A stretch of DNA of 64,000 nt from Catellatospora bangladeshensis (lineage in GTDB: Bacteria > Actinomycetota > Actinomycetes > Mycobacteriales > Micromonosporaceae): contig NZ_BONF01000008.1 of NCBI RefSeq assembly GCF_016862575.1, forward strand, positions 186,001-250,000, in the 5' to 3' direction. The position numbers and the translations under genes were made by a program. Below are positions 6,604 to 50,432 of this stretch, piece after piece (within the stretch, counting starts at the first letter, position 1; every line of letters begins with the position of its first letter). The notes under the pieces were generated by a model that saw only the letters and a program-made list of their open reading frames with translations, did no database searches and had not been told where the DNA came from.

Positions 6604-6703
6604 TTGATCGCTGGTTCGTGTCGAAACGTGTGGCCAGCAAGATCGCGGGTTCGTGTCGAAAGGTGCGGCTGGACCGCAGGTTTGGACACGAAGCCGCGAT
6701 CTT
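6604..6703. repeat. 65-bp palindrome (family A): half copy plus full copy
   Basis: The full element is 6639-6703: arm AAGATCGCGGGTTCGTGTC, a 27-base centre, and the complementary arm with one mismatch. Directly before it, 6604-6638 holds the first 35 bases of a second copy (TTGATCGCTGGTTCGTGTC...), apparently cut off by the full one. They lie between convergent genes whiB1 and cbiX. See the family description in the findings. Confidence 0.9.
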
Positions 6704-6859
6704 CGCCGGAGGGCAGCCGTCGCGAGGGCGCGGTGTGGGCCGGGGCGCCCGACGGCGGCGCGGAAGGTGCCCGGCGGACGCCGCCCGGAGACAGACAAGA
6801 TCACGAATCTCGGCCCGTGACCAGGGAAATACGGTGCGTGAAACCGTGCGGAAACCCGC

Positions 6860-7660
6860 TCAGGCGGCCACGAGAGCGCGTTGCGGAGCGGCCGCATCCA
6901 CGCGGTGCAGAACGAGCCGAACGAGCTCTCTCGACGCTCCCAGAGGTGCCGCCGCGCCGATCGCGCCCGTGTCCCGGGCATCGGCGACGATCGCCTCGTA
7001 CAGCCGGCCGGGCGCGAGGAAGTACGACGCCACCGCCACCCGCTGCGCCCCGGCCTCCCGCAGCGCCGTCACAGCCTGCCCGCCGGTGGGCGCCGCCGCG
7101 CTGGCATACGCCGCCTGGCAGGGCACGCCCAGCCGCCGTCCCAGCTCGGCCGCGACCTCGTCGACCATGGCCCGCCCGGACGCCACGCTGGTGCCCGCCG
7201 CAGCCAGCACGACCGCGTCGTAGCCGGCACCGGCGCGCCCGGCGACGGAGGCTGCGGGCACCGCCTCGTGCAGGCGGCGCACCAGCCCCGCCAGCAGCGG
7301 CTCGGAGACCGCGCCGAGGGTGTCCGCGATCGCGCAGTCGAACCCGGCGACCTGGGCGGGCAGGTCCACCCGCCCGTGGTACGCGCGGGTCAGCAGCAGC
7401 GGCACCACCACCGGCGCGGGTGCCCCTGCGGCCCGTAGCGCGGCCAGCACGTCGGCCGGGCGCGGCTCGGCCAGCTCCAGGAACGCCACCCGGACGTCCA
7501 GGCCCGGCCGGGCGCAGGCGACCGCGCGGGCCAGCGCTCGCGTTTCCGCCTGCGCCCGCGGATCGCGCGAGCCGTGCGCGACCAGCACCACGGGCGCGAG
7601 CGCACCCGTGGGGCCGGTCGTCAGCCCGTCCCGCGGCATCGTCCGCGCGTCACGCGGCAT
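6860..7660 (-). CDS. Sirohydrochlorin chelatase (CbiX/SirB-like)
   Basis: A 266-residue protein of the CbiX class II chelatase family. The metal-binding histidine is in 'VLVAHGSRDPRAQ' (residues 27-39), with duplicated-domain features including 'VVPLLLTRAYHGRVDLP' and 'RVAVASYFLAPGRLYEAIV'. It inserts Fe2+ (or Co2+) into sirohydrochlorin. As the last gene of the sulfate-reduction operon it most likely makes siroheme for the sulfite reductase at 8616-10322. Its start overlaps the end of cysH by 11 bases, showing translational coupling. An alternative ATG lies seven codons downstream. Confidence 0.88.
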   Translation of the reverse strand: MPRDARTMPRDGLTTGPTGALAPVVLVAHGSRDPRAQAETRALARAVACARPGLDVRVAFLELAEPRPADVLAALRAAGAPAPVVVPLLLTRAYHGRVDLPAQVAGFDCAIADTLGAVSEPLLAGLVRRLHEAVPAASVAGRAGAGYDAVVLAAAGTSVASGRAMVDEVAAELGRRLGVPCQAAYASAAAPTGGQAVTALREAGAQRVAVASYFLAPGRLYEAIVADARDTGAIGAAAPLGASRELVRLVLHRVDAAAPQRALVAA

Positions 7661-8360
7661 GCAGACCGCACTCGGTCTTGTCGAACATCGCCCAGCGCCC
7701 CGAGCGCGGGTCCTCGCCCGGCTGGGTGCGCCGGGTGCACGGCCAGCAGCCGACGGAGCCGTAGCCCTGGTTCAGCAGCTGGTTGACCGGGATGTCGTGG
7801 CGGGCGATGTACGCGTCCACATCGGCCTGGGTCCAGGTCGCCAGCGGGTTGACCTTGACCTTGCCGCGGTTCTGCTCGAAGTGCACCACGGGGGTGTTGG
7901 CGCGGGTCGGCGCCTCGTCGCGGCGCAGGCCCGCGGCCCACGCCTCGTATCCGGCGAGCGCCTCCTCCAGCGGCTTCACCTTGCGCAGGTAGCAGCAGGA
8001 GTCGGGGTCGCGGGCGTAGAGCCGGGGTCCGTAGCGCTCGTCCTGCTCGGCGACGGTCAGCTCGGGGCGCACGGTCCGCACGGTCACCGGGATGGTGCGG
8101 GTGACCCGGTCTCGCACCCGCAGCGTCTCCGGGAAGTGCAGGCCGGTGTCGAGGAAGACCACCTCGATGCCGGGCACCACCCGGGCCGCCACGTGCGCCA
8201 GCACGGCGTCGGCCATCGAGCTGGTGACGCAGAAGCGCGACCCGAACGTGGCCGCCGCCCAGCCGACGATCTCCTCGGCGGGCGCGCCCTCCAGCTCGGC
8301 CCCGGCCCGGCTCGCCAGATCCATCAGTTCCGCGGTGGAACGCCGCACGTCCACGGTCAT
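7650..8360 (-). CDS. cysH: Adenylyl-sulfate (APS) reductase
   Basis: A 236-residue PAPS-reductase-family enzyme that reduces activated sulfate to sulfite with thioredoxin. It has the P-loop-like 'SSMADAVLAH' segment, 'LDTGLHFPET' and the two cysteine pairs 'DSCCYLRK' and 'GCWPC', which together bind a 4Fe-4S cluster and mark the APS-using class rather than the cluster-free PAPS class. The catalytic cysteine is in the terminal 'ECGLH'. Start: the ATG at 8360 overlaps the previous stop as ATGA; the frame is open further upstream, but that would run through the neighbour gene. Confidence 0.95.
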   Translation of the reverse strand: MTVDVRRSTAELMDLASRAGAELEGAPAEEIVGWAAATFGSRFCVTSSMADAVLAHVAARVVPGIEVVFLDTGLHFPETLRVRDRVTRTIPVTVRTVRPELTVAEQDERYGPRLYARDPDSCCYLRKVKPLEEALAGYEAWAAGLRRDEAPTRANTPVVHFEQNRGKVKVNPLATWTQADVDAYIARHDIPVNQLLNQGYGSVGCWPCTRRTQPGEDPRSGRWAMFDKTECGLHAA

Positions 8361-8554
8361 TGCGTCACCCTCCCCAGCAGTCCGATCATCTTCAGCGCGA
8401 AAACCCGTCGGCACGCTCGGCACTCCCACTGCCCGTGGGTGCCGGCGGCCGGCTCCCCTGCCTCGTTCTCCGGACCCGCGTGCGGGCGCAGGTACGCCTC
8501 CTCGCCACAGAACGGGCAGTAGTACGGCACCGCCCGTTGATTGCCGTCGCTCAT
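8357..8554 (-). CDS. Small zinc-ribbon protein in the sulfate operon
   Basis: A 65-residue protein with two knuckles, 'CPFC' (near residue 13) and 'CRAC' (near residue 46), forming a likely rubredoxin-type zinc ribbon. Its function is unknown; small proteins like this occur between sir and cysH in actinomycetes. Its ATG overlaps the stop of the 22-codon frame before it (ATGA), and its stop overlaps the cysH start the same way, so it must be translated with the operon. Confidence 0.8.
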   Translation of the reverse strand: MSDGNQRAVPYYCPFCGEEAYLRPHAGPENEAGEPAAGTHGQWECRACRRVFALKMIGLLGRVTQ

Positions 8555-8619
8555 GCCGCCGCCTCCGGCGTCGCCATGAGCCGAGCAGCGTTCATGATTC
8601 GCTCGCTGCGCTCGCTCAT
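8551..8619 (-). CDS. 22-codon micro-ORF linking sir to the zinc-ribbon gene
   Basis: The frame begins 'MSERSERIM' and ends 'ATPEAAA'. Its ATG overlaps the sir stop (ATGA, 8616-8619) and its TGA overlaps the next ATG (8551-8554), so ribosomes could pass sir - micro-ORF - zinc ribbon - cysH without a gap. The first 20 bases form the palindromic GCGAGCGCAGCGAGCG sequence. The peptide itself may have no function; it could simply carry translation across the 61-base gap. Confidence 0.5.
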   Translation of the reverse strand: MSERSERIMNAARLMATPEAAA

Positions 8620-10322
8620 CGGAGTTCTTCCTCGTCCACGCGCAGCACCCACTCGGCGAAGGGCTCCATGGCGTCCTTGCGGCCTTCGAGGTAGCGGCGG
8701 GTCAGGCGCTCGGCGTACTCCGGCAGCTCCTCGACCGTGGTCTTGAGGCCGCGCAGCTTGCGCCCGAAGTTCGGGTTCTGGCCCTGGGCCATGCTCAGCC
8801 CGCCGCCCAGGTGCACCTGGAAGCCCTCGACCAGCTCGCCGTTCGGGCCGGGCACCAGCTGGCCCTTGAGGCCGATGTCGGCGACCTGGGTGCGGGCGCA
8901 GGCGTTCGGGCAGCCGTTCACGTTGATCGAGATGGAGCCGTCGATCCGGCCGATGGTGCGCTCCAGGTGCGCCACGGTCCGTTCCGCGGTGGCCTTGGTC
9001 TCGACGATGGCCAGCTTGCAGTACTCGATGCCGGTGCAGGCCATCGTGTCGCGCCGCCAGGTGGACGGCCGGGCCTGCAGCCCGATCGCGTCCAGCGCGG
9101 CGATCAGCGACTCGACCTGCTCCTCGGCCACGTCGAGCACCAGCAGCTTCTGGTACGGCGTGAGCCGCACCCGGCCCGACCCGTGCGCCTCGGCGATGTC
9201 GGCGACCTGCGCCAGCACCGTGCCGCTGACCCGGCCCGCGACGGCCGCCGCGCCGACGTAGAACCTCCCGTCGCGCTGGCGGTGCACGCCGATGTGGTCG
9301 ATCGGGTGCTCGGGCAGCTTCGGCGCGGGGCCGTCGACCAGCTTGCGGCCGACGAACTCGTCCTCCAGGATCTGCCGGAACTTCGCCACGCCCCAGTCGG
9401 CGACCAGGAACTTGATGCGCGCCCGGTTGCGCAGGCGGCGGTAGCCGTAGTCACGGAACAGCCGGCACACGCCCAGCCACACCTCGGCCACCTCGGCCAG
9501 CGGCACCCAGACGCCCAGGCGCTGGGCCAGCATCGGGTTGGTGGACAGGCCGCCGCCGACCCACAGGTCGAAGCCGGGCCCGTGCTCCGGGTGCTCGACC
9601 CCGATGAACGAGATGTCGTTGGCCTCGTACGGCACGTCGGGCAGCCACGAGATCACGGACTTGAACTTGCGGGGCAGGTTGGACAGCGACGGGTCGCCGA
9701 TGTACTTCTCGACGATCTCGGTGATCGCCGGGGTGCCGTCCAGCACCTCGTCCTCGCTGATCCCGGCGACCGGGCTGCCGAGCACCACGCGCGGGGTATC
9801 GCCGCAGGCCTCGGTGGTGGACAGGCCCACCGCCTCGACCTCGCGCCAGATCGCCGGCACGTCCTCGATGCGCACCCAGTGCAGCTGGATGTTCTGCCGG
9901 TCGGTGATGTCGGCGGTGTCGCGGCCGTACTTCGTCGACACGTCCGCGATCGCGCGCAGCTGGGCCAGGTCGAGCTGGCCGCCGTCGACGCGGATGCGGA
10001 GCATGAAGTACTCGTCGTCGAGCTCGTGCGGCTCCAGCACCGCGGTGCGGCCGCCGTCGATCCCGGGCTTGCGCTGCGTGTAGAGGCCCCACCAGCGCAG
10101 CCGGCCGCGCAGATCGGCCGGGTCGATGGAGGCGAAGCCCCGGTGGGCGTAGATGTTCTCGACCCGGGCGCGGACGTTGAGCCCGTTGTCGTCCTTCTTG
10201 GTGCGCTCGTTCGGGTTCAGCGGCTCGCGGTGCCCGAGCGCCCACTGACCCTCGCCGCGGGGCTTGCGCGCGGCCCGGCCGGGGGTGCCTGCCGATGATG
10301 ACGGTGCTGCCGATGCTGCCAT
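8616..10322 (-). CDS. sir: Ferredoxin-dependent sulfite reductase (nitrite/sulfite reductase family)
   Basis: A 568-residue siroheme/4Fe-4S enzyme that reduces sulfite to sulfide with six electrons. Two ferredoxin-like half domains alternate with two siroheme domains. The cluster/siroheme ligands are the 'CTGIEYC' and 'NGCPNAC' motifs near residues 430-480, and 'QNIQLHWVRIEDVP' lies near 145. In actinomycetes such proteins next to cysH are sulfite reductases. It is the first gene of the operon sir - micro-ORF - zinc ribbon - cysH - cbiX and has a leader peptide 130 bp upstream. The N-terminal 30 residues are low-complexity. Confidence 0.93.
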   Translation of the reverse strand: MAASAAPSSSAGTPGRAARKPRGEGQWALGHREPLNPNERTKKDDNGLNVRARVENIYAHRGFASIDPADLRGRLRWWGLYTQRKPGIDGGRTAVLEPHELDDEYFMLRIRVDGGQLDLAQLRAIADVSTKYGRDTADITDRQNIQLHWVRIEDVPAIWREVEAVGLSTTEACGDTPRVVLGSPVAGISEDEVLDGTPAITEIVEKYIGDPSLSNLPRKFKSVISWLPDVPYEANDISFIGVEHPEHGPGFDLWVGGGLSTNPMLAQRLGVWVPLAEVAEVWLGVCRLFRDYGYRRLRNRARIKFLVADWGVAKFRQILEDEFVGRKLVDGPAPKLPEHPIDHIGVHRQRDGRFYVGAAAVAGRVSGTVLAQVADIAEAHGSGRVRLTPYQKLLVLDVAEEQVESLIAALDAIGLQARPSTWRRDTMACTGIEYCKLAIVETKATAERTVAHLERTIGRIDGSISINVNGCPNACARTQVADIGLKGQLVPGPNGELVEGFQVHLGGGLSMAQGQNPNFGRKLRGLKTTVEELPEYAERLTRRYLEGRKDAMEPFAEWVLRVDEEELR

Positions 10323-10453
10323 CGCAGCGTCCTCCTGTAGTCAGTGGAGCGAGGACGCGCCTATGCGCCAGCACCGCGGTCGAGCGCGGATTCAAGCAGA
10401 TGAATGCTCCGGCGCGTATGCGCGCCCGGGTTCAAAAAAACGGACGGGCGCGG

Positions 10454-10555
10454 TCAGCCAGCCGGACAGATGGCGCTGCGCACGCGGCCGAAATCGATGT
10501 GGCGGCGGGCGGTCAGCCCGAGCCCCATCAGGCGGCGGTTCACAGCGGCGGTCAT
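10454..10555 (-). CDS. Putative sulfur-responsive leader peptide of the sir operon
   Basis: A 33-codon frame 131 bp upstream of sir, ending 'TARRHIDFGRVRSAICPAG'. The RRHxDxxRxxSAxCP tail is that of the short leader peptides found before sulfur-assimilation genes in Streptomyces and mycobacteria, in which a cysteine codon near the end is thought to sense cysteinyl-tRNA. Here the single cysteine is fourth from the end. The 131-bp spacer could hold the attenuator; an A-run (10434-10441) follows the peptide. Regulation of sir by cysteine is inferred from the family. Confidence 0.8.
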   Translation of the reverse strand: MTAAVNRRLMGLGLTARRHIDFGRVRSAICPAG

Positions 10556-10660
10556 GCAGTCACTTTCTCACGGCGGGCAGACCCGTGCCAATCACCGATC
10601 GCGTCACGTCCCACATTCTGACGCGGACGTGACGCAGATCGCTCTTTGTTAAAACAGGGA

Positions 10661-12190
10661 CTAACGCTCGCGTTTGGCGAGCGGCACGAACAGCAGCGCC
10701 TCGGTGCCGCCCTCGGCCCGGTTGCGCAGCTCGATGCTGCCCCGCAGCTCGCCCGTGGTCAGCGTACGGATGATCTGCAGGCCCAGCCGCTTGTTCGTGG
10801 TCGGGTCGAAGTCCTCGGGCAGCCCGCGCCCGTTGTCGGCGACCGTCACGTGCAGCTCCCGCTTGGCCCGCTCCACGTGCACCACCACCTCGGCGCCGTC
10901 CACGACCTCGCCGCCCATCGAGTCGAACCCGTGCTCGACCGCGTTGAGCAGCAGCTCGTTGAGCACCATGACCAGCGGGGTGGCGATCTCGGCGGGCAGC
11001 ACGCCGAAGCTGCCCTCGCGCCGGGTGCGCACCGGCGACTCGGGCGCGGCCACCTCGGCGGCCGCGTTGGCCACCCGGTCCACGATGCCGTCGAACTCGA
11101 CCGCCTCGTCGGCGGACATCGCCAGCGTCTCGTGCACCAGCGCGATCGAGGCGACCCGCCGCACCGACTCCTCCAGCGCGGCCCGCGCCTCGGGCAGGGT
11201 GACCCGGCGCGCCTGCAGGCGCAGCAGCGCCGCGACCGTCTGCAGGTTGTTCTTCACCCGGTGGTGGATCTCCCGGATGGTCGCGTCCTTCGTGATCAGC
11301 GCGCGGTCCCGGCGCTTGACCTCGGTGATGTCGCGGACCAGCACCAGCGCGCCGATCGGCACGCCCGCCGGCATCAGCGGCAGCGCCCGGCTGAGCACGG
11401 TCGCCGTACGCGCCTCGATCTCCTTGCGGGCCGGAGCGTCGCCGCGCAGCGCGGACAGGATGCGGTTGCTGGCCTCGGAGCCCTCCAGCGGGTCCTCGGC
11501 GAGCCGGTTGAACAGCGCGGCCAGGTCCTCGCCGACCAGGTGCGCGGAGAAGCCGAGGCGGCGGATCGCGGACTGCGCGTTGGGCGAGGCGTAGGTGACC
11601 TTGCCGCTGCCGTCCAGCCGGATCAGGCCGTCCCCGACGCGCGGCGCGGAGGTGGTCTCCCCCGGGTGACGCACCGCCGGGAACGTGCCGTCGGCGATCA
11701 TCTGCGCCAGGTCGTCGGCCGTGGTCAGGTAGTTCAGCTCCAGCTGGCTGGGCGTGCGCGCGGTGGACAGGTTGGTGTCCCGGCCCACCACCGCGATCAC
11801 CGCGCCCGCCTCGCCGTCGTCGGCGCGCCGCCGCACCGGGATGGCCTCGTGCCGCGCCGGGGTGTCGCCGTACCAGACCGGGTCGCCCTCCCGCCAGATG
11901 CGGCCCTGCTCGCGCGCCACCCCCAGGTGGGCCACCTCGGCCCCGCTGGAGGTACGCCCCACCTGGTCGTCCTGATACGCGGTGGGCGCGGTGGTCGGCC
12001 GCACCTGCGCCACGCAGAGGAACGACGGTGTGCCGCCACCCGGCTCGCTCTCCACCGGCACCCACAGCAGCAGGTCGGCGAAGGAGAGGTCGGAGATCAG
12101 CTGCCAGTCGCCGGCGAGCCGGTGCAGGTGGTCGATGTCGGCCGGGCCGAGCGAGGTGTGCTCCTCGACCAGTTCACGCAGCGTTGACAC
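10661..12190 (-). CDS. pdtaS: Two-component sensor histidine kinase PdtaS
   Basis: A 509-residue cytoplasmic kinase. Residues 1-150 form a GAF-like sensor domain and about 160-290 a PAS domain ('GLIRLDGSGKVTYASPNAQSAIRRLGFSA'). A HisKA_2 dimerisation helix carries the phospho-acceptor in 'EIHHRVKNNLQTVAALLRLQ', followed by the HATPase domain with N-box 'VLNELLLNAVEHG' and 'DNGRGLPEDFD'. No membrane segments are seen. The partner in mycobacteria is PdtaR, an RNA-binding ANTAR response regulator; it is not in this window. Its closeness to whiB1 matches the mycobacterial arrangement. Confidence 0.93.
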   Translation of the reverse strand: MSTLRELVEEHTSLGPADIDHLHRLAGDWQLISDLSFADLLLWVPVESEPGGGTPSFLCVAQVRPTTAPTAYQDDQVGRTSSGAEVAHLGVAREQGRIWREGDPVWYGDTPARHEAIPVRRRADDGEAGAVIAVVGRDTNLSTARTPSQLELNYLTTADDLAQMIADGTFPAVRHPGETTSAPRVGDGLIRLDGSGKVTYASPNAQSAIRRLGFSAHLVGEDLAALFNRLAEDPLEGSEASNRILSALRGDAPARKEIEARTATVLSRALPLMPAGVPIGALVLVRDITEVKRRDRALITKDATIREIHHRVKNNLQTVAALLRLQARRVTLPEARAALEESVRRVASIALVHETLAMSADEAVEFDGIVDRVANAAAEVAAPESPVRTRREGSFGVLPAEIATPLVMVLNELLLNAVEHGFDSMGGEVVDGAEVVVHVERAKRELHVTVADNGRGLPEDFDPTTNKRLGLQIIRTLTTGELRGSIELRNRAEGGTEALLFVPLAKRER

Positions 12191-12247
12191 GCGATCAGCG
12201 TCTCACGCCCGGGTGCCCGCGCGGTCACCGCCCGCACACCCGCCCGG

Positions 12248-12324
12248 AGATCAACCGACTTGCCAGGCAGGTGTGCGTATCTTGGCGCGCGATACGCCCG
12301 TGTGCCTGGCAAGTCGATCGATCT
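12248..12324. repeat. 77-bp palindrome (family B), copy 1
   Basis: An inverted repeat with arms of about 34 bases around the shared core CGACTTGCCAGGCA...GCGTATC, beginning and ending with AGATC/GATCT. It lies between two minus-strand genes, ten bases past the stop of the SIS gene, so it could also end that transcript. The other copy is at 20175-20251 and has exactly the same length. Confidence 0.85.
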
Positions 12325-12333
12325 TGCGGGGGG

Positions 12334-13389
12334 TCAGAGGGTGGCGGTGACCTTCTTGAGGCCGCGGGGGGCGTCGGGGTCTTCGCCGCGGGCCAGGGCC
12401 AGGGAGAGGGCGAGCTGCTGGAGGGGGAGGATCTCCAGGAGGGGGGCGTAGCGCTCGTCGACGGCGGGCACGTCGAGGCGGGCCGAGGCGCCCGGGACGG
12501 ACTCGGGGCCGACCACGACGACGTCCGCGCGGCGCTCGTCGAGGCGGGTGAGCACCTCGCGCATGGCCTGGCCGCCCAGCCCGGCGCCGACCATGGCCAG
12601 CACCGGCACGTCCGGGTCGGTCATCGCCAGCGGGCCGTGCAGCAGATCCGCACCGGAGAACGCCAGCGCCGGCAGGTACGACGTCTCCATCAGCTTCAGC
12701 GCCGCCTCGCGGGCCGTCGGGTAGGCGTAGCCGCGGCCGGTGGTCACCATCCGGGCCGCGAACCGGTAGCGCGCGGCCAGCTCGGCGGCGGTCGGATCGG
12801 CCAGGGTCTGCCGGGCCAGCTCGGGCAGCCGCTCCAGCGCGGCCCGCTCGTCGGCGGGCAGCGCACCGTCGCCGGCGCGTACCCCCTCGATGAGCATCAG
12901 CAGCGCGAACAGCTCGGCGGTGTAGGTCTTGGTGGCGGCGACCGCCCGCTCGTGCCCGGCCGCGACGTCCACCGACAACTCGGCGGTCTGCGCGAGCACG
13001 GACTCGGGGTTGTTGGTCACCGCGAGGGTGAGCGCGCCGGAGCCGCGCGCCACCCGCAGCACCTCGGCCAGGTCGGGCGAGCCGCCGCTCTGCGAGACGC
13101 CGATCACCAGCGCGTGCGACAGGTCGGGGCGGGCGCCGAAGACGGTGATCGCGCTCGGCGAGGCGAGCCCGGCGGGCAGTCCCAGCCGGATCTCTGTGAG
13201 GTACGCCGCGTACAGGGCGGCGTGGTCGGACGTGCCGCGCGCGGTGAACACCACGTGCTTCGGCCTCCGCTCGGCGATCACCTTGGCGACCTGTGCGATG
13301 GCGTCGGCGTGTGCCGGCTCCAGCAGCCCGGCGTACACCTCCGGCTGCTCGGCGATGTCCGCTGCCATCCCGCTGCCGCGCTGGCCCAT
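12334..13389 (-). CDS. SIS-domain sugar-phosphate isomerase/deaminase (GlmS C-half-like)
   Basis: A 351-residue protein with two SIS domains resembling the isomerase half of glucosamine-6-phosphate synthase: 'VVFTARGTSDHAALYAAYL' (residues 45-65), 'VIGVSQSGGSPDLAEVL', 'VAATKTYTAEL' and the lysine-bearing 'REAALKLMETSYLPA'. The glutaminase half is missing, so it cannot use glutamine. Proteins of this shape act as glucosamine-6-phosphate deaminases (NagB-II) or AgaS-like isomerases. No other amino-sugar gene is nearby to choose between them. The start has a GGGAGAAGAG ribosome site; an in-frame ATG lies seven codons on. Confidence 0.83.
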   Translation of the reverse strand: MGQRGSGMAADIAEQPEVYAGLLEPAHADAIAQVAKVIAERRPKHVVFTARGTSDHAALYAAYLTEIRLGLPAGLASPSAITVFGARPDLSHALVIGVSQSGGSPDLAEVLRVARGSGALTLAVTNNPESVLAQTAELSVDVAAGHERAVAATKTYTAELFALLMLIEGVRAGDGALPADERAALERLPELARQTLADPTAAELAARYRFAARMVTTGRGYAYPTAREAALKLMETSYLPALAFSGADLLHGPLAMTDPDVPVLAMVGAGLGGQAMREVLTRLDERRADVVVVGPESVPGASARLDVPAVDERYAPLLEILPLQQLALSLALARGEDPDAPRGLKKVTATL

Positions 13390-13551
13390 CTCTTCTCCCT
13401 ACCACTTCGCCCTGCGATGCTGCGCGATACCGCGCGTTCGGTGCGCAGTCTTGCACGATAATGACCGGCAGAGCAACACTGCGCGCAGAAATGAGCAGGG
13501 GCACACAATGCCCGCGCGCGCCTCTACCCTGTGCGACCGAGGGGAGGTCAC

Positions 13552-15162
13552 ATGTCCGACGGCGTCAACGATCCACAGCAGGAGGCGCTGGGCGAACTCG
13601 CCCTCGCCACCCTCGCCCTCGACGAGCACGACGCCGAACACGCGGTGCGCCACCTCGCCGCCGCGCTCGGCCACGACCCGCGCCTGCCCGAGGCGCACGA
13701 GCTGCTCGCGAAGATCGCCGCCCGCGCCGACGACGGCGGGCTGGGCCTGTTCCACCCCGGCGAGCGCGCCACCGCGGGCCGCGTGGTCGCCTTCGCGCAC
13801 GTGCTCGCCCGGCACGGCCGCCACGCCGACGCGCTCACGCTGCTCGCCCAGGCCACCGTGCACGACCCGGCCCGCCCCTGGGCCGACGTCAGCTGGGTGC
13901 AGGCCCTCGACGCCGCCGAGATCGCCCCGGAGCACCTGCTCCGCGTGCTGCTGTCCGTGCTGGGCGCACTGCCCGACCCCGCCCCCGCGCACATCGCGCG
14001 GGCCACCCGGCCATACCTCGACCTGGCCCGCCGGGCCCTGCTCGCCCACCCCCGCGAGGCCCTGCTGCACGGCGCGGCCTCCGGGGTGGCGCGGCGGCTG
14101 CGCGAGCTGCCCCTCGCGCTGGCCTGGGCCGAGCGGGGGGTACGCCTGCAGTCCGGCAAGCTCACCGAGATGTGGTGGGGCAACGCCCTGCGCGCCGACG
14201 GGCGGCTCGACGAAGCGGTGCGAGCCATGCGAGCCGCCCAGCGGCACGACCCCGACGACCTGTCCGTCGCCTCCGACCTCGCGCTCTGGCTCACCGAGCT
14301 CGGTCACACCGCCGAAGCCCTAGCCCTCATCGAGGAGGCCACCGCCAAGGACCCGTCGTACGACTGCGCCGTGCACACCGCGCACCGGCTGCGCTTCCTC
14401 GCCGACGGCGACCCCGGCCACCTGGTCGCCCTCGCCGACTTCATGCGCGCCACCACCGACGCCAGCCACGAGCACTACGACCTGCAGCAGTGCTGCGAAC
14501 GGCTGCCCTGGCTCGGCTTCGTACCCGAGGAGGGCGACCCGGTCCCGCCCGCCGGACCCCGGCCCGACCCGCCGCAACCCGCCGCCGCCCGCGCGATCGC
14601 CGCCATGCTCCCGCTCGGCTGGGCACCCCCGCCGATGGTGTACGACGCGGCGGTGCGGCTGGCCGGCGTACCCGCCGAAGATCTGATCGCGGCGCTGTCC
14701 CACCCGCCCGTCCCGCCCGGTGTCGACCCCGACCGGGTCCCCGCCGCGCGCCGCGTCCTGCGGCTCTGGTGCTGCCTCGGCCTGCTGCACCATCGCGCGG
14801 GCGAACCCTGGTTCGGCTCCACCCGGCGGCGGTTGCTGCTGGACGTCGCCCTCGGTGCCGGGGACGGTGCCGTCGAGGCGCTGTACGCGCTGGTCGCCGC
14901 GGGCTGGGTGGACCCTGCCTGCCGCGCCGACGTCGCCGCCCTGCTGGAGGCCCGGCTGCGCGCGGTGCCGGAGGCGCGCCGGGTCCACCCGTTCACCGCG
15001 GACGTGGCCGTGGCACAGCTCGCCTACGTCACCCCGGGCATGCCCGCCGAGGCCCGCGCCCTGGCCGGCCACATCACCGGCGACGCCCTGCCCGGCCCGG
15101 CCGCCGCCGTCCCGCGTCCCCGCCGCCCGTGGCTCTCCCGCCTCCTTCGGCGGCGACCCTGA
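13552..15162 (+). CDS. TPR-repeat protein of unknown role
   Basis: A 536-residue, alanine- and histidine-rich helical protein. Repeats with tetratricopeptide spacing are clearest at residues 10-60 ('ALDEHDAEHAVRHLAAALGHDPRLPEAHELLAKI') and 215-270 ('ADGRLDEAVRAMRAAQRHDPDDLSVASDLALWLTELGHTAEALALIEEA'). The second half is helical without a recognised domain and ends in a basic tail. There is no signal peptide. It probably mediates protein contacts. It is divergent from the SIS gene. The ATG at 13552 is preferred over one 21 bases upstream because of the GGGGAGG ahead of it. Confidence 0.75.
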   Translation: MSDGVNDPQQEALGELALATLALDEHDAEHAVRHLAAALGHDPRLPEAHELLAKIAARADDGGLGLFHPGERATAGRVVAFAHVLARHGRHADALTLLAQATVHDPARPWADVSWVQALDAAEIAPEHLLRVLLSVLGALPDPAPAHIARATRPYLDLARRALLAHPREALLHGAASGVARRLRELPLALAWAERGVRLQSGKLTEMWWGNALRADGRLDEAVRAMRAAQRHDPDDLSVASDLALWLTELGHTAEALALIEEATAKDPSYDCAVHTAHRLRFLADGDPGHLVALADFMRATTDASHEHYDLQQCCERLPWLGFVPEEGDPVPPAGPRPDPPQPAAARAIAAMLPLGWAPPPMVYDAAVRLAGVPAEDLIAALSHPPVPPGVDPDRVPAARRVLRLWCCLGLLHHRAGEPWFGSTRRRLLLDVALGAGDGAVEALYALVAAGWVDPACRADVAALLEARLRAVPEARRVHPFTADVAVAQLAYVTPGMPAEARALAGHITGDALPGPAAAVPRPRRPWLSRLLRRRP

Positions 15163-15194
15163 CCTGCGCCCGAAGTCCGGTCCGCCGCCGCCGT

Positions 15195-15614
15195 CTTGTG
15201 TCACAACCTGTGGCTGAGTCCGGCCTGTGACGGGAGCCCGCACTCAACGCCCTTCCCTGAAACCCGCGCCGAGCGGAGCGGGGGTGGAGATCGCGGTCTC
15301 GTGTCCGAAAGTGTGGCTGGAGCCCAGCTTCCGACACGAGACGGCGATCTTCGCGAACGCGGCTCCACCCCAGCCCAGTCCCCGGAGGGCTTGATCGCGA
15401 CTTCGTGTCACAACCTGCGGCCCAGCCCCACTTTTCGACACCAACTCGCGATCTTCACCGCCGCCACCCGGACCGGACCGAGCACAGCCGGCCTTGATCG
15501 CGGTCGATCTCCACCCCCCACTCCCTTCGGCGCGGGTTTTAGGGGGGTGTTGATCGCGGGCTCGTGTCACGAGCCGGGCTCCAGCCACACTTTCTGACAC
15601 GAGACGGCGATCTT
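15195..15614. repeat. Cluster of three 65-bp family A palindromes plus a degenerate one
   Basis: The 542-bp gap between two convergent genes (TPR, stop 15162; MFS, stop 15705) holds full copies at 15287-15351, 15391-15455 and 15550-15614, each exactly 65 bp with TTGATCGC/AGATCGC...TCGTGTC arms. A degenerate copy sits around 15195-15230 (TTGTGTCACAACCTGTGG...). The spaces between copies are also partly similar (GGAGATCGCGGTC, GATCGCGGTCGATCTCC). No gene was seen here. Confidence 0.88.
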
Positions 15615-15641
15615 CGCGGGGCAGGGCGGGGCCGGACATGG

Positions 15642-15689
15642 CGAGGCCCCGACGACGCAGCCGGGGAACGGCGGCGGGGCGGGGCCTCG
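15642..15689 (-). terminator. Hairpin terminator of the MFS gene
   Basis: A perfect 10-bp inverted repeat CGAGGCCCCG (15642-15651) / CGGGGCCTCG (15680-15689) lies just past the minus-strand stop at 15705. Confidence 0.7.
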
Positions 15690-15704
15690 ACGGTGGTGCG
15701 GTGG

Positions 15705-17294
15705 TTACTCGACGGCGACCAGGGGCCGGGCCTCGGCGCCTTCGGCGGTGGGCTCACCGCCGCGCAGCGGGACCTCCTTGATGAACCAGGCCGCGATCGG
15801 AACCAGAATCGCGAAGCCCAGCGCCCACCAGAACAGACCCGAGGTGGCGTACGCGATGCCGTGCAGCACCGCCTCCTTCATCGGCGCGGGCAGCAGGTCG
15901 AGCTTGTCCGGCTGCAGCCCGCCGACGTTGAACTCCATGTTGCCGCCAGGCGCACCCGCGGGCATCACGCTGCCGAGGTCGTCCTTGAGCCGGTCGACGA
16001 ACACCGCACCGAAGATCGACACACCGAACGAACCGCCGATGGACCGCACGAACGTCGCGGTCGAGCTGGACACGCCCAGGTCCTTCTGCTCCACGCTGTT
16101 CTGCGCGATGAGCATCGTGGTCTGCATGAGGAAGCCCATGCCGACGCCGAGCACCACCATGTAGATCGAGGACTCGGTGATGCTGGTGTCCACGTCGAGG
16201 CGGGTGAGCAGCACCATCGCCAGGGCGAGGGTGACACCGCCGAGGATCGGGAAGATCCGGTAGCGGCCGGTCTTGGTGATGGTCCGGCCCGCGACGATCG
16301 AGGTGACCATCATGCCGAGCATCATCGGCAGCAGCAGCAGGCCGCTGTTGGTGGCCGAGGCGCCCTGCACGGTCTGGATGTAGAGCGGCAGGAACGAGAT
16401 CGCGCCGAACATCGCGAAACCGACCATGAACCCGATGACCGAGACCAGGCTGAAGTTGCGGTTGCGGAAGATGCCCAGCGGCAGGATCGGCTCGGCGACC
16501 CGGGTCTGCGTCCACAGGAAGATGCCCAGCAGCACCACACCGGCCACGCCCATGCCAAGGATCTCCGGCGAGTCCCACGCGTACTTGTTGCCGCCCCAGG
16601 TGGTGATGAGGACGAGCGCGGTGACGCCGAGGCTGAGCAGGGCGGCGCCGATCCAGTCGATGCGGTGCTCGGTGCGGTACTTCGGCAGGTGCAGGGTGGT
16701 GGCCAGCACGAACAGGGCGATGCCGCCGATCGGCAGGTTCACGTAGAAGGCCCAGCGCCAGTCGGCGTGGTCGGTGATCAGGCCGCCGACGAGCGGGCCG
16801 GCGATCATCGCGACGGCCATGATGGCGGCCATCATGCCCTGGTACTTGCCGCGCTCGCGGGGCGGGACGAGGTCGCCGATGATGGCCATCGCGCCGACCA
16901 TCAGACCGCCCGCGCCGAGGCCCTGCAGCGCCCGGAAGGCGATCAGCTGGTTCATGCCCGAGGCGGGGTCGATCTCACCGGCCGCGCCGGACAGCGCCGA
17001 GCCGACGAGGAAGATGATGATCGATACCAGGAAGATGGTCTTGCGTCCGTAGAGGTCGCCCAGCTTGCCCCAGATGGGGGTCGAGATCGTGGTGCCGAGC
17101 ACGTACGCCGTGACCACCCAGGACAGCTTGTCGAGTCCGCCCAGCTCGCCGACGATGCGCGGCATGGCCGTACCGATGATCATGTTGTCGAGCATGGCCA
17201 GCAGGATGGCGAGCATCAGGCCGGGCAGCACAACGCGGAGGTTCGGTTTGGGGATTTCGGGGGACGACGTCGTCCGGTCCAGGACTTCAGTCAT
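15705..17294 (-). CDS. MFS drug-efflux transporter, 14-helix DHA2 (EmrB/QacA) family
   Basis: A 529-residue integral membrane protein with about fourteen hydrophobic segments. Typical DHA2 motifs are 'MLDNMIIGTAMPRIVGELGG' in helix 1, 'GKLGDLYGRKTIFLVSI' (motif A) after helix 2, 'RALQGLGAGGLMVGAMAIIGDLVPPRERGKYQG' (motifs B/C region) and 'LVGGLITDHADWRWAFYVNLPIG'. It should export hydrophobic toxic compounds using the proton gradient. It is divergent from a TetR repressor gene, and three operator-like palindromes occupy the space between them. Substrate-induced derepression is therefore expected. Confidence 0.93.
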   Translation of the reverse strand: MTEVLDRTTSSPEIPKPNLRVVLPGLMLAILLAMLDNMIIGTAMPRIVGELGGLDKLSWVVTAYVLGTTISTPIWGKLGDLYGRKTIFLVSIIIFLVGSALSGAAGEIDPASGMNQLIAFRALQGLGAGGLMVGAMAIIGDLVPPRERGKYQGMMAAIMAVAMIAGPLVGGLITDHADWRWAFYVNLPIGGIALFVLATTLHLPKYRTEHRIDWIGAALLSLGVTALVLITTWGGNKYAWDSPEILGMGVAGVVLLGIFLWTQTRVAEPILPLGIFRNRNFSLVSVIGFMVGFAMFGAISFLPLYIQTVQGASATNSGLLLLPMMLGMMVTSIVAGRTITKTGRYRIFPILGGVTLALAMVLLTRLDVDTSITESSIYMVVLGVGMGFLMQTTMLIAQNSVEQKDLGVSSSTATFVRSIGGSFGVSIFGAVFVDRLKDDLGSVMPAGAPGGNMEFNVGGLQPDKLDLLPAPMKEAVLHGIAYATSGLFWWALGFAILVPIAAWFIKEVPLRGGEPTAEGAEARPLVAVE

Positions 17295-17324
17295 GGGGGC
17301 TCCGCTCGTTCACCGGCGACCTTA

Positions 17325-17387
17325 CTTGCCGCCCGGCTAGAATATTTACTAGCCGTACGGTAAGTTCCCTACTTGCCGGCCGTCAAG
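17325..17387. promoter_or_regulatory. Three evenly spaced TetR-type operators
   Basis: Three 16-bp imperfect palindromes of the form CTwGCCGn-nCGGywAG: CTTGCCGCCCGGCTAG (17325-17340), CTAGCCGTACGGTAAG (17349-17364) and CTTGCCGGCCGTCAAG (17372-17387). Their starts are 24 and 23 bp apart. They fill the divergent promoter between the MFS transporter and the TetR gene, the expected target of the TetR protein at 17438-18022. Confidence 0.75.
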
Positions 17388-17437
17388 TTGGTTACCCCGC
17401 CCGGCTGACAGTGTGATCCAGGGAACACGGAGCAGCG

Positions 17438-18022
17438 ATGAACGACGACCTCGCCGGTGGCCGGGCCGACGCCCGGCCCGACACGCGCGCCCGCATCCAG
17501 GCCGTCGCCCTCGACCTCTTCACCGAGCAGGGCTACGAGGGCACGTCGCTGCGGGAGATCGCCGAACGGCTCGGCGTCACCAAGGCGGCCCTCTACTACC
17601 ACTTCAAGAGCAAAGAGGAGATCGTCGACAGCTTCAGCGCCGACCGCCTCGCGCGGATGGACATGCTGATCGAGTGGGGCCGCAGCCAGCCGGAGCCGCA
17701 CTCGGCCGGGTTCCGGCGCGAGCTGCTCGCCCGCTACGCCGACGAGCTGCACAGCGGCCCGTTCCTCAAGGTGATGCGCTTCTTCCACCAGAACCAGCTG
17801 GCGTTCAAGAACCAGCCGGCCGGGGCGAAGATGCGCGACGCCATCATCGACATCATCGGCCTGCTCGCCGAGCCCGGTTCGGCGCCGACCGCACGGCTGC
17901 GCGCGGGTATGGCGGTGTTCGCGCTCAACACGAGCTGGCTGCTGCTGCAGGGTGAGGACATCAGCGACGAGCAGCGGCGGGAGGCGGCGATGGAGGTCGC
18001 CCTCGACCTCATCCGCGACTGA
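17438..18022 (+). CDS. TetR/AcrR-family transcriptional repressor
   Basis: A 194-residue repressor. The N-terminal helix-turn-helix spans residues 18-64 ('TRARIQAVALDLFTEQGYEGTSLREIAERLGVTKAALYYHFKSKEEIV'), an almost canonical TetR signature. The C-terminal ligand-binding part is helical. It probably represses the divergent MFS transporter and itself through the three palindromes in the 143-bp gap, and is released by a substrate of the pump. The inducer cannot be told. Confidence 0.93.
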   Translation: MNDDLAGGRADARPDTRARIQAVALDLFTEQGYEGTSLREIAERLGVTKAALYYHFKSKEEIVDSFSADRLARMDMLIEWGRSQPEPHSAGFRRELLARYADELHSGPFLKVMRFFHQNQLAFKNQPAGAKMRDAIIDIIGLLAEPGSAPTARLRAGMAVFALNTSWLLLQGEDISDEQRREAAMEVALDLIRD

Positions 18023-18038
18023 GCGGCCGCGGTGGCGC

Positions 18039-18539
18039 TCAGGCCAGCGGGTAGCGCAGGGCGAGCAGGGTGACCCCGGGCAGCGGCGACCAGTCGCGCT
18101 CGGGCAGCCGCTCGAAGCCCATCCGGGCGTAGAGGCGGCGCGCGTCGGCGGCGAAGTCGCGTACGCAGATCACGACGCTGCGGCAGCCGTGGGCGGCGGC
18201 GCGCTCCAGGCACGCGCGGGCCAGCGCCTCGCCCGCGCCCCGGCCCTGGGCCTGCGGCGACACGGCGAGCATGCGGAACTCGGCCTCACCCTCGCGGGCC
18301 AGGTCGGCCAGCGGGCTGCCGGGCAGCACGAACGTCACCGAGCCGAGCACGGCCCCGGTGGTCTCGTCCACGGCGACCAGCACCTCGGCGGCGCGGGCGC
18401 GGGCGGCGGCGTCGGACAGGTGCGCCTCGTACGGGTGGCCGTCCGCGGTCTGCCCGTCGCCCCGGTAGGCGGCGACGGACAGCGCACCGATCGCGTCGTA
18501 GTCGGCCGGCAGCGCCGGCCGGACGAGGATCTCGGTCAT
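18039..18539 (-). CDS. GNAT-family N-acetyltransferase
   Basis: A 166-residue single-domain GNAT protein. The acetyl-CoA pyrophosphate loop is 'VSPQAQGRGAGEALARACLERA' (Q/RxxGxG/A), followed by 'RLYARMGFERLPERDW', the usual end of the fold. It has 'VLVAVDETTGAVLGSVTFVLPGS' before the loop. The substrate is unknown. It ends 16 bp from the stop of the TetR gene and starts 15 bp upstream of nothing but the carrier gene stop, so its promoter may overlap that region. Confidence 0.88.
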   Translation of the reverse strand: MTEILVRPALPADYDAIGALSVAAYRGDGQTADGHPYEAHLSDAAARARAAEVLVAVDETTGAVLGSVTFVLPGSPLADLAREGEAEFRMLAVSPQAQGRGAGEALARACLERAAAHGCRSVVICVRDFAADARRLYARMGFERLPERDWSPLPGVTLLALRYPLA

Positions 18540-18553
18540 GCGGGGTGCCGCTA

Positions 18554-18769
18554 CTACTCGATGACGGCGATGAGGTCGCCCTCCTGGACGACGTCACCCT
18601 CGTTCACGGCGATCTTGGAGACCACGCCGTCCGACTCGGCGATCACGGGGATCTCCATCTTCATCGATTCCAGGATGACCAGGGTGTCACCCTCGGCGAC
18701 CTCGTCCCCCGCCGCCGCCACGACCTTCCACACGTTCGCCACCATCTCGGCCTTGATCTCCTCGGCCAT
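18554..18769 (-). CDS. Biotin/lipoyl-attachment carrier protein (TB7.3-like)
   Basis: A 71-residue single biotinyl/lipoyl domain with the modified lysine in 'LESMKMEIPV' (Lys37); the M-K-M triplet indicates biotin. It matches the size of mycobacterial TB7.3 (Rv3221c), which also lies between pdtaS and the rshA/sigH pair. It could carry biotin for an acyl-CoA carboxylase encoded elsewhere. The start was placed at 18769 because 'MAEEIKAEMVANVWKV' is the normal domain start; the open frame continues upstream without protein-like content. Confidence 0.92.
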   Translation of the reverse strand: MAEEIKAEMVANVWKVVAAAGDEVAEGDTLVILESMKMEIPVIAESDGVVSKIAVNEGDVVQEGDLIAVIE

Positions 18770-18898
18770 CAGCCGGCCCCTTCCCCTGACTCGCGTGCAA
18801 GACGACCGTATCCAATCACGGAGCGCCGGTCCGGTGACGCTCAACCGGCGCATAGGATTTGTCCCTGACTGAGCGCCGTTACCGGAAGGGGTGTGTCC

Positions 18899-18973
18899 AT
18901 GGGCAAGCGTGCTCGCAAGAAGAAGTCCCGCAAGGGCTCGAAGGCCAACCACGGCAAGCGACCCAACAGCTAA
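18899..18973 (+). CDS. Ribosomal protein bL37
   Basis: A 24-residue, extremely basic protein: 'MGKRARKKKSRKG' then 'KANHGKRPNS'. The 'KANHGKRPN' ending is that of bL37, the tiny 50S protein found in mycobacterial ribosome structures and restricted to actinobacteria. A GGAAGGGG ribosome site stands before the ATG. It is divergent from the biotinyl carrier gene and 42 bp ahead of the moxR-like gene. It is easily missed because of its size. Confidence 0.9.
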   Translation: MGKRARKKKSRKGSKANHGKRPNS

Positions 18974-19015
18974 TCCCGTTGCCGGGGTGCACCTCGGGGC
19001 GGATCATTTCCCGGC

Positions 19016-22159: not shown

Positions 22160-22224
22160 AAGATCGCCGTCTCGTGTCACATCCTGCGGTGTGGCCGCAG
22201 ATCATGACACGAGACGGCGATCTT
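22160..22224. repeat. 65-bp palindrome (family A), perfect-arm copy
   Basis: AAGATCGCCGTCTCGTGTC at 22160-22178 and its exact complement at 22206-22224 (19/19) flank a 27-base centre. It sits between convergent genes (VWA stop 22136, rsrA stop 22265). Confidence 0.92.
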
Positions 22225-32052: not shown

Positions 32053-32114
32053 CCTACCCCGCCGGGCCGCACACCCGGCCGTTCCCGTCCAGCCGTGCGC
32101 CACGCCCACCAGAT

Positions 32115-32156
32115 CTTGTGCGGTTCGTGCTGCCGGGACGACACGAACTGCACAAG
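32115..32156. terminator. Bidirectional terminator hairpin
   Basis: A 15-bp stem with one mismatch (CTTGTGCGGTTCGTG / CACGAACTGCACAAG) and a 12-base loop lies between the convergent DUF1254 and GH42 stops; T's and A's flank each side. Confidence 0.85.
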
Positions 32157-32158
32157 TT

Positions 32159-39024: not shown

Positions 39025-39195
39025 ATGATCGCGAGTTCGTGTCGAAACCTCTGGTAGGACCGCAGATCTTGACACGAACCCGCGATCTTCACCCCGTGAC
39101 GGCAGCGACCCCGGCCCTTGGGCGGGAAGAAAGATCGCCGTTTCGTGTCAGAACCTCGGCTAGGACCGCAGGTTTGGACACGAAACGGCGATCTT
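39025..39195. repeat. Two 65-bp family A palindromes
   Basis: Copies at 39025-39089 and 39131-39195. The second has perfectly complementary 19-bp arms (AAGATCGCCGTTTCGTGTC). Both lie in the gap between convergent genes (hydrolase stop 38944; permease stop 39308). Apart from these and the tandem repeat, nothing is seen in this 363-bp gap. Confidence 0.92.
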
Positions 39196-41265: not shown

Positions 41266-41275
41266 GCGGTCGTCC

Positions 41276-43020: not shown

Positions 43021-43051
43021 GTTAGTTCGTCTTTCGACTAAACAAACTAAC
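43021..43051. promoter_or_regulatory. ROK/XylR-type operator between transporter and regulator
   Basis: A 31-bp region with perfect outer inverted repeats GTTAGTT and AACTAAC; within it TTAGTT-N12-AAACAAAC (43022-43047). It resembles Bacillus XylR sites (TTAGTTTGTTT type). The same bipartite pattern lies before the GH31/GH42 pair. It lies 75 bp before the binding-protein start and about 115 bp before the ROK start. Confidence 0.75.
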
Positions 43052-43166
43052 CCATGGTCCTGCCGACCACAAGGGAGCGTTCCCACGCCGGGTCCGCACC
43101 CGTGCCGCCGGATGTGCGGATACGGCATGATGGTGCGACCAGTGCAGTCACACCGGAGGGCAGACG

Positions 43167-44387: not shown

Positions 44388-44459
44388 GCCGCGCATCGTT
44401 ATCCGTTCGCGGGGCGTTAATACGGGTGTAATCCGGATTAACTGGACGGAGCGATAGCC

Positions 44460-45479: not shown

Positions 45480-45672
45480 CGATCCACAAAGCATGATCGA
45501 TTCATCCGTTCGCGCTGCTGGAGCGCTGCGCGAAGCGTGGCGGCCGGAGACCCCCCAAGATCGTATGGGAACGCTCCCTTGACGACCGGGCGCCGCGCGC
45601 GGTAAACCTCTGGCGTACTCCGTTGCGAAATCAGGTGGAAACAGCGCCGGGCGGAGTATTTTTCGGCCGATC

Positions 45673-45738
45673 GTCGAAGCGCTTCGACTGTGGATCAGGG
45701 GACCCTCCATCCTCGATCCATTGTCGAAGCGCTTCGAC
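45673..45738. promoter_or_regulatory. Two perfect 16-bp LacI-type operators before GH3
   Basis: GTCGAAGCGCTTCGAC occurs at 45673-45688 and 45723-45738, each a perfect palindrome, with 50 bp between centres (about five helical turns). They are the only recognised elements of the 327-bp gap 45480-45806 besides the GH3 promoter. Same-face placement suits repression by DNA looping. Confidence 0.85.
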
Positions 45739-45806
45739 TACCACTCCAGAGCTGCCCGTACTCCACGCACTCTTCCGACCGTCCGCCCAGACGAAGGAAC
45801 CCGGCG

Positions 45807-48644: not shown

Positions 48645-48702
48645 TCGGGTACGGCGGACGGCGGGTATGACCGCGCGGGGAGAACAGGCGGGAGCAGCCA
48701 TG

Positions 48703-49749: not shown

Positions 49750-49829
49750 TCGCCTGCGCGGTAAGGGTTTTCCCGGAAATCGGGACTTCACAAGACGGCA
49801 ACCGCGCGGTTAAATCGTGCTGACAGAGG

Positions 49830-49843
49830 TGGGAGCGCTTCCA
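49830..49843 (+). promoter_or_regulatory. CebR-type operator
   Basis: TGGGAGCGCTTCCA differs by one base from the palindromic CebR box of Streptomyces. It sits 146 bp before a truncated cellulose-binding gene, the kind of gene CebR normally controls. The rest of the 239-bp gap shows a ribosome site (AGGAGA) and no gene. Confidence 0.75.
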
Positions 49844-49988
49844 TCGATGTACGCCGAAACGCCTGGAAATCCCTGACACCCCCGCACGCGATACGAGGTA
49901 GCGACGGGGCGGATGCGCCCACATCCGCCCCGTCAGTGCCCTACCGCGGCGACTCGCGTCGCGCGGCTCCACGGACAGGAGAATCCTA

Positions 49989-50304
49989 GTGCCTACCCAC
50001 AGTGACGCCATCCGCCCTCCGGGCCGGTGGCGCCGGTTGTTCGCCGGGCTTGACCTACCCGTTCCCGGCCTCCGGCCTGGCCGTCACCAGCGGCCACAGC
50101 GCCACCTGGACCCAGTCCGGCGCGAACGTCACCGCCGTCGCCCTCTCCTGGAACGCCAACCTGGCCCCCGGCGCCTCGGCCACGATCGGCTACAACGGCG
50201 CCTGGACCACCACCAACCCCGAACCCACCGCCTTCAAGCTCAACGGCTCCACCTGCACCGTCAGCCAGGAAAGGAAGGGCACCTTCTTAACGCTATGCGT
50301 ATAG
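49989..50304 (+). pseudogene. Remnant of a secreted CBM2-carrying glycoside hydrolase
   Basis: Start, ribosome site and the first signal-peptide residues ('MPTHSDAIRPPGRWRRLFAG') are intact. Right after them, in another frame, comes the last 70 residues of a family 2 carbohydrate-binding module ('WTQSGANVTAVALSWNANLAPGASATIGYNG', 'PTAFKLNGSTCTV'). The catalytic domain, linker and half the CBM are missing and the frame is broken at the junction, so a deletion fused the two ends of the gene. The stop region is replaced by a family C palindrome. It was probably a cellulase or xylanase. Confidence 0.85.
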
Positions 50305-50323
50305 GAAGGTGCCCTTCTTAACC
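50270..50323. repeat. Family C palindrome replacing the end of the CBM2 remnant
   Basis: AAAGGAAGGGCACCTTCTTA ... GGAAGGTGCCCTTCTTAAC, starting exactly where the CBM2 stop codon would be expected. In the opposite orientation to the copy at 50511-50565. Confidence 0.9.
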
Positions 50324-50367
50324 CTCCCCTGCTGGACTGCCCCGGTCCGCACCGGCGGGAGGTCACG

Positions 50368-50432
50368 AAGATCGCTGTTTCGTGTCAATTCGCCAGGTAG
50401 AACCGCAGATCTTGACACAAGACAGCGATCAT
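50368..50432. repeat. 65-bp palindrome (family A)
   Basis: AAGATCGCTGTTTCGTGTC at 50368-50386 and a near complement (GACACAAGACAGCGATCAT) at 50414-50432. It lies between the family C copies and between convergent genes. More diverged than the other copies. Confidence 0.88.

Follow-up and report, generated by a model that had tools for sequence, protein, structure and literature searches.

The window analysed here, a stretch of 64,000 nucleotides of the Catellatospora bangladeshensis genome (contig NZ_BONF01000008.1, positions 186,001 to 250,000), contains eight copies of a 65-bp palindrome that recurs at gene ends throughout this genome, with neighbouring copies mostly separated by whole turns of the DNA helix. 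Our preferred explanation, put forward tentatively, is that the copies may act as Catellatospora-specific two-way terminators, similar to repetitive extragenic palindromic (REP) elements, and may also be bound as DNA by a putative protein. This reading builds on the sequence, copy number, gene-end position, arm covariation, near restriction to the genus and helical spacing of the copies, from which we infer termination, a binding protein and cooperation.

Palindrome copies and their placement

The gapless alignment of the eight near-palindromes has 31 invariant columns out of 65. Exact arms (GATCGC-N4-TCGTGTC...GACACGA-N4-GCGATC) are present in six of the eight and in none of 100 dinucleotide shuffles. 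Alignment and arm search thus agree with the first-pass annotation, made from the window sequence alone, on the number, length and positions of the palindromes, and no further full copy is found in the window when up to 6 arm mismatches are allowed. The features, none of which is assigned to a strand, are as follows:

6604..6638, half copy (left arm and half of the centre) abutting the copy at 6639; arm match at 6606-6622 without mismatch, its own right arm absent
6639..6703, 65-bp palindrome; gap between a DAGK-domain gene (+, ends 5783) and a CbiX gene (-, ends 6860)
15287..15351, 65-bp palindrome, first of three in the convergent gap 15162 (+) / 15705 (-); supported by alignment, exact arms, folding and Pfam flanks
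15391..15455, 65-bp palindrome, second of three, 104 bp from the 15287 copy; one arm mismatch
15550..15614, 65-bp palindrome, third of three, 159 bp from the 15391 copy; exact arms
22160..22224, 65-bp palindrome with perfect arm pairing in the 128-bp convergent gap 22136 (+) / 22265 (-); supported by folding, gene calls and Pfam flanks
39025..39089, 65-bp palindrome, first of two in the convergent gap 38944 (+) / 39308 (-); exact arms, Pfam flanks
39131..39195, 65-bp palindrome with perfect arm pairing, 106 bp from the 39025 copy; exact arms, folding
50368..50432, 65-bp palindrome, one arm mismatch; convergent gap between a LacI gene (+, ends 49749) and a pectate-lyase gene (-, ends 50571)

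The centre of copy 15550 resembles the reverse complement of the centre of copy 15287. All five copy-bearing gaps of the window are convergent according to our own gene caller, as had been annotated, and all ten flanking genes have a Pfam hit (DAGK/CbiX, TPR/MFS, DUF2201/zf-HC2, alpha-beta hydrolase/ABC permease and LacI/pectate lyase). The minus-strand gene of the first gap has a score of 23.6, below the later cut-off of 25, and was accepted on its CbiX hit. It had also been stated that the other convergent gaps of about 100 bp hold unrelated hairpins. One gap (32053-32158) does contain a hairpin, CTTGTGCGGTTCGTG...CACGAACTGCACAAG, which is unlike the 65-bp family, but it is the sole copy-free convergent gap of this size seen in the window. 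At about 50571-57285 four called minus-strand genes form a run that begins with the pectate-lyase gene, and three 300-nt stretches there are 61-68% alike.

The palindrome family is near-restricted to Catellatospora. The host genome (8.83 Mb in 115 contigs) contains 135 copies with exact arms; among the other genomes of the 11 available for the genus, 125 such copies are found in the sister genome G006, five more genomes have 31, 11, 8, 7 and 7, and four have none. Reversed control patterns give 0 matches in the same 11 genomes. With relaxed arms all 11 genomes contain copies, from 2 to 146 each. Outside the genus, exact arms occur in 0 of 289 genomes of the family, relaxed arms in one of 139 family genomes as a single copy, and the class-level search found no copy in 295 genomes, two of which belong to the same family. 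Among the matches listed, the named species with the pattern are Catellatospora vulcania, C. paridis, C. sichuanensis and C. methionotrophica. Plasmids and phages gave no match to one copy used as the query and viral contigs none to the exact pattern, on which basis a plasmid, phage or virus vehicle was rejected. A known RNA family was rejected on 0 Rfam matches above the gathering score in the window. Contigs C7, C9, C10, C12, C40, C48, C60 and C67 of the host genome (G000) have ends lying no more than about 150 bp from a copy or arm; thus, the hairpins probably break the draft assembly, and the copies may be undercounted.

Gene context was determined in stretches fetched around the listed matches, using our own simple dicodon gene caller with a score cut-off of 25, and the gap statistics therefore represent a case-control comparison. 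All counts are limited to copies with at most 5 or 6 arm mismatches, and p values are uncorrected for the number of tests. The 160 copies found in about 0.97 Mb of the host genome comprise 77 in tandem gaps, 63 in convergent and 6 in divergent gaps, one inside a gene call and 13 at stretch edges. The sister genome has 52 copies (26 tandem, 19 convergent, 1 divergent, 0 inside gene calls and 6 unassigned) and the four named species 40 (17 tandem, 16 convergent, 0 divergent, 2 inside gene calls and 5 unassigned). Pooled, the 252 copies divide into 98 convergent, 120 tandem and 7 divergent, the ratios excluding the 24 without an assignable gap and the 3 inside gene calls. The first-pass claim that the family occurs only between convergent genes consequently fails genome-wide, and this exclusivity was rejected, being due to the small sample that the window provides.

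Strong enrichment in convergent gaps, which had also been predicted, is confirmed, and the genome-wide copies are not placed at random relative to gene orientation. Host gaps of 90-800 bp with and without a copy number 44 and 30 for convergent, 47 and 161 for tandem, and 5 and 87 for divergent pairs, corresponding to odds ratios of 5 against tandem (Fisher p 1.7e-8) and 25 against divergent gaps (p 6.5e-15). In the range of 90-200 bp, where tandem gaps frequently fall within operons, a copy is present in 19 of the 40 convergent gaps, compared with 8 of 110 tandem gaps and none of the 42 divergent ones. This pattern is as expected of an element poorly tolerated inside operons, and avoidance of promoters and ribosome-binding sites could contribute. 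The median distance to the nearer stop codon is 49 bp in convergent gaps. Tandem copies lie at a median of 91 bp from the upstream stop codon, to which they are closer than to the downstream start in 62 of 77 cases in the host, 23 of 26 in the sister and 15 of 17 in the named species (100 of 120). Thus, both the convergent enrichment and the proximity of tandem copies to the upstream stop identify the copies as gene-end elements.

Hairpin structure and arm covariation

All eight window copies fold from either strand, with energies of -23.9 to -51.8 kcal/mol (z -4.5 to -11.6), and the median folding energy of 61-bp copies is -35.9 in the host, -41.2 in the sister and -42.8 in the named species. 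A GC-rich stable hairpin is therefore present downstream of the stop codon, as in canonical intrinsic terminators. A terminator scan of window positions 1-20000, a weak one limited to loops of 3-8, did not pick up any of the four copies in that region.

The arms covary between species. Position profiles and covariation were analysed in 61-bp copies only, other lengths being dropped; of 159 such copies in the host genome, 103 have exact arms, compared with 135 exact-arm copies in the whole genome. The N4 block is identical in both arms in 43 of 159 host copies (14.4 expected), 23 of 51 in the sister (4.1 expected) and 27 of 37 in the named species (13.4 expected). Elsewhere in the genus the inner block TCGTGTC can be replaced by TCGGGTC, TCCGGTC, TCAGGTC or TCGCGTC. 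Of 94 copies, these being the 61-bp ones among the matches listed in five other genomes, 63 share the two inner variable bases (GT, GG, CG, AG or GC) between their arms. The remaining copies are mixed, for example 7 AG/GG and 6 GG/GT of 42 in G003. Covariation exceeds that of shuffles at position 13 in both sets (p 0.001 and 0.003). At position 14 it does so in one set (0.94 vs 0.48, p 0.0005), with no significant excess in G003 (0.83 vs 0.77 shuffled, p 0.12). Compensatory changes in the arms, one of the first-pass expectations, are therefore observed, since N4 and the inner bases alter in both arms together. The related claim that pairing is maintained despite base changes stands for the genus as a whole, but the eight window copies alone are only weakly better than shuffles, with 90.8% of cells paired compared with 87.4% and 10 of 500 shuffles as high.

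Within the host genome covariation is seen for the arm pairs but not for the inner pairs of the centre, which show a slight anti-correlation at positions 22, 23 and 30, so that the centre was rejected as a conserved stem there; some centre positions covary in other species. Taken together, the predicted hairpin, its covariation and the gene-end placement favour a two-way terminator, as proposed in the first-pass annotation, or a 3'-end element. The 65-nt sequence, transcribed from either side, would form a long, stable hairpin that lacks a strong U-tract, and this hairpin would most likely end or trim transcripts, in both directions in convergent gaps and in one direction at operon ends in tandem gaps.

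Spacing of neighbouring copies and competing explanations

Centre-to-centre distances between copies of the same gap are mostly 94-95, 102-106, 115-116, 125-127 and 157-159 bp. This regularity was unexpected and is absent from the first-pass annotation. The first set of 33 pairs has outliers at 81.5, 108 and 110 bp, and none between 160 and 600 bp. After removal of similar spacers, by a rough cut that keeps diverged relatives, 41 non-redundant pairs remain, and in 36 of them the distance deviates from a multiple of 10.5 bp by no more than 1.5 bp. A period of 10.7 bp fits best, and the phase vector length of 0.80 compares with a maximum of 0.53 in 5000 random sets of the same size. Counting one pair per array, 27 of 31 are in phase in the host (vector length 0.83) and 11 of 12 in the sister, whose arrays are not independent of those of the host, owing partly to common ancestry. 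A whole-genome pattern scan, in which the fixed bases were matched exactly and which is independent of the fetched stretches, gives 22 of 25 pairs in phase in the host and 11 of 12 in the sister. The spacers are mostly unrelated in sequence, a few arrays being clear duplications, and the whole-turn spacing thus points to recognition as double-stranded DNA besides the hairpin role. Conservation within copies peaks at a period of 11-11.5 bp (periods of 4-19.5 bp scanned, no p value attached), and the half-sites of host and sister have a pyrimidine at position 10 in 419 of 420 cases and a purine at position 8 in 416 of 420. This strand-specific degeneracy, the rhythm of about 11 bp and the helical spacing speak for DNA recognition in the host and sister lineage.

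In the host and its sister, a putative protein would thus probably also read the copies as double-stranded DNA. Whole-turn spacing would bring bound proteins onto the same face of the helix, where they might cooperate in a roadblock, boundary or supercoil-handling complex. Rather more doubtful is the proposal that the copies are sites of a putative lineage-specific protein forming a nucleoprotein boundary at gene ends, which would block RNA polymerase or handle supercoils from both sides, with arrays in register for cooperation. If true, 100-200 gene ends of one bacterium would be served by a terminator or insulator that works in both directions, is sequence-specific and is assisted by a protein.

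Two other palindrome families were observed in the host genome. One of them, AAGGGCACCT...AGGTGCCCTT, occurs at window positions 32916, 37985, 50267, 50509 and 52208, and has 94 arm sites in about 0.97 Mb compared with 1.6 expected. Its arm distances are mostly 31-32 bp, with only three larger distances between neighbours (158, 202 and 210 bp). The other, an intergenic family around GCAGTTTC/GAAACTGC, was found at L128, L130, L032 and L157, a similar sequence being present in the spacer of one pair of 65-bp elements; this GCAGTTTC family has no distance above 31 bp. Phased arrays as a general property of palindromes in this genome were rejected, as neither the AGGTGCCCTT nor the GCAGTTTC family forms comparable arrays.

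Several results weigh against the interpretation of the copies as terminators also bound as DNA. The 10 nt after the stem contain few T (mean 2.1), at least four being present in 47 of 420 ends, and a U-rich tract directly after the stem was not found. The excess of T on the sense side of 120 tandem copies (2.48 vs 1.91, p 9e-5) was rejected as a terminator mark, since it recurs 20-40 nt away and is nonspecific. On the transcribed strand G.U mismatches are not significantly favoured over A.C (77 vs 68), and RNA-level selection is therefore not supported. Other strong hairpins were present in 10 of 17 convergent gaps with a copy and in 35 of 41 without (p 0.016, before control). Randomly cut copy-free gaps gave 57% (p 0.48); the deficit thus arises from how the gaps were split, the replacement of other hairpins by the copies was withdrawn, and our confidence in the preferred explanation is lowered accordingly. 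Arm covariation is weaker in the host genome than elsewhere and could also be produced by cellular correction of quasi-palindromes, and the degree of sequence conservation goes far beyond what a hairpin requires. The pattern scan gave no pairs in the other nine genus genomes, seven of which have 0 hits; the single hits in G007 (G007:C1:1694860-1694903) and G009 (G009:C1:345751-345794) are inside-out palindromes, with the right arm followed by the left 10 bases apart. The evolutionary test of the spacing is mixed. Sister and host differ by more than 1 bp in three arrays: phase is kept in one (94 vs 116 bp, two turns, the longer spacer having a repeat of about 22 bp) and lost in the other two (110 vs 105 and 125 vs 113 bp).

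Alternatively, the copies could be REP-like repeats or miniature inverted-repeat transposable elements, mobile now or formerly, which multiply by transposition or local duplication and persist only at sites where they are harmless, namely gene ends; their position and hairpin would then be side effects of selection against copies inserted into genes and promoters. We regard this as unlikely. It is in line with the near restriction to the genus, with the wide range of relaxed copy numbers among sister species (2 to 146) and with the depletion of divergent gaps, which is expected from promoter avoidance. Copies are also present or absent at matched gaps (L028/L094, L031/L084), two of the three copies at L079 are identical over 61 bp, reflecting local duplication, and the cleanest difference, L164 versus L128, reads as a deletion that left an arm end in L128. 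Inverted arms, a feature of insertion elements, are present, but the matched copy-free gaps are not clean empty sites, and none of the pairs read has a clean empty site with a target duplication. Among transposases, the search covered Y1 and no other families: Y1_Tnp (PF01797) has 0 matches in the host genome and none in G010, which has 64 copies, or in G007-G009. Six of the 11 genus genomes have 1-3 matches, and the nine Y1 loci of other Catellatospora (match and about 1.5 kb on each side) contain no copy. On these results, an association with a REP-associated tyrosine transposase (RAYT), the search for which was proposed in the first-pass annotation, was rejected. The results with plasmids, phages (one copy) and viral contigs (exact pattern) likewise speak against mobility, and avoidance of genes and promoters leaves the covarying arms and helical spacing unexplained. 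In the comparison of L030 with L038, C. paridis has about 1.2 kb (a gene, by eye) between a copy and a degenerate copy, and C. vulcania has a single copy there, a difference that recombination between copies might have produced.

Positive supercoils accumulate at gene ends, and the copies might be purely DNA-level, operator-like sites of a nucleoid, topology or chromosome-organising protein (e.g. with a gyrase-type role at gene ends), the hairpin being irrelevant. The helical spacing in 27 of 31 arrays and the conservation period of about 11 bp would fit such sites, as would the degeneracy at positions 10 and 8, which a hairpin would not need. However, a dimeric site would not require the arm covariation seen at several variable positions, pairs are found in only 2 of 11 genus genomes, and the partner protein has no candidate, the search having covered Y1 transposases; this explanation is quite unlikely. 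Growth of arrays by tandem duplication of an ancestral unit of about 105 bp, in place of selection or binding, would explain why the 102-108 class is the commonest, why spacers are related in some arrays (L011, L083, and L079 by eye) and why two of the three sister spacing differences are out of phase. This origin of the spacing, which is compatible with a terminator role, appears very unlikely, as the modes at 94, 115, 126 and 157 bp stay in phase without the 102-108 class (15 of 17 arrays), and 41 pairs are left after removal of similar spacers by the rough cut.

Comparison with known systems

The available text of one report describes REP elements and bacterial interspersed mosaic elements (BIMEs) as high-copy extragenic palindromes located mostly between convergent or unidirectional genes, downstream of coding regions (PMC3733652). 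According to the available part of another, REP elements often form regularly spaced clusters, bind several proteins, have been proposed as terminators and have complementary changes in the palindrome; the word "helical" is absent from that part (PMC2817692). REP doublets with spacings of 71 and 110 bp have been reported, in a main text that does not contain "helical", "helix" or "periodic" (PMC3116915), and the available part of a further paper (PMC12306157) mentions neither Catellatospora nor Streptomyces. Among the titles and abstract openings listed from the open-access literature, no description of helical spacing of such repeats, or of this family, was found. Like REP and BIME sequences, the Catellatospora family is a high-copy extragenic palindrome, located mainly between convergent and tandem genes. 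However, it is 65 bp long instead of 20-40 bp, and its neighbouring copies are mostly set at helical-turn spacing. The family thus resembles REP elements in location and copy number but lacks two of their characteristics, the GTAG/CGTC head and a host RAYT gene: both ends are mostly A-W-GATCGC, CGTC occurs only as one N4 variant inside the arm, and the host lacks a Y1/RAYT transposase.

Streptomyces terminators mapped by Term-seq have, in the available text, long stable hairpins with 3-4 U in the first 10 nt and a covarying hairpin consensus, and transcript ends lie at a median of 66-76 nt after the coding sequence (PMC12207403). The Catellatospora copies resemble the terminators so described in their long stable stems, few U, covariation and location (medians of 49 bp from the nearer stop in convergent gaps and 91 bp from the upstream stop in tandem gaps). 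They differ in that the 100-200 copies of a genome share a single conserved sequence, and in having fewer T (mean 2.1). The inverted pairs of uptake signals in Neisseria and Haemophilus represent a conserved short sequence at gene ends that doubles as a terminator. In the Catellatospora element, by contrast, the variable bases change in both halves together.

How transcription stops with few U and how collision between convergent genes is avoided are poorly understood in high-GC actinobacteria. With a sequence-conserved, searchable family at 100-200 gene ends, and natural spacing variants in a sister genome, two old questions become testable: whether gene-end palindromes are terminators, DNA sites or passengers, and whether helical register matters. 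As in rotationally phased protein-binding arrays, the Catellatospora sites repeat at integral helical turns, suggesting that gene-end repeats may carry a DNA-level grammar hidden in their spacing.

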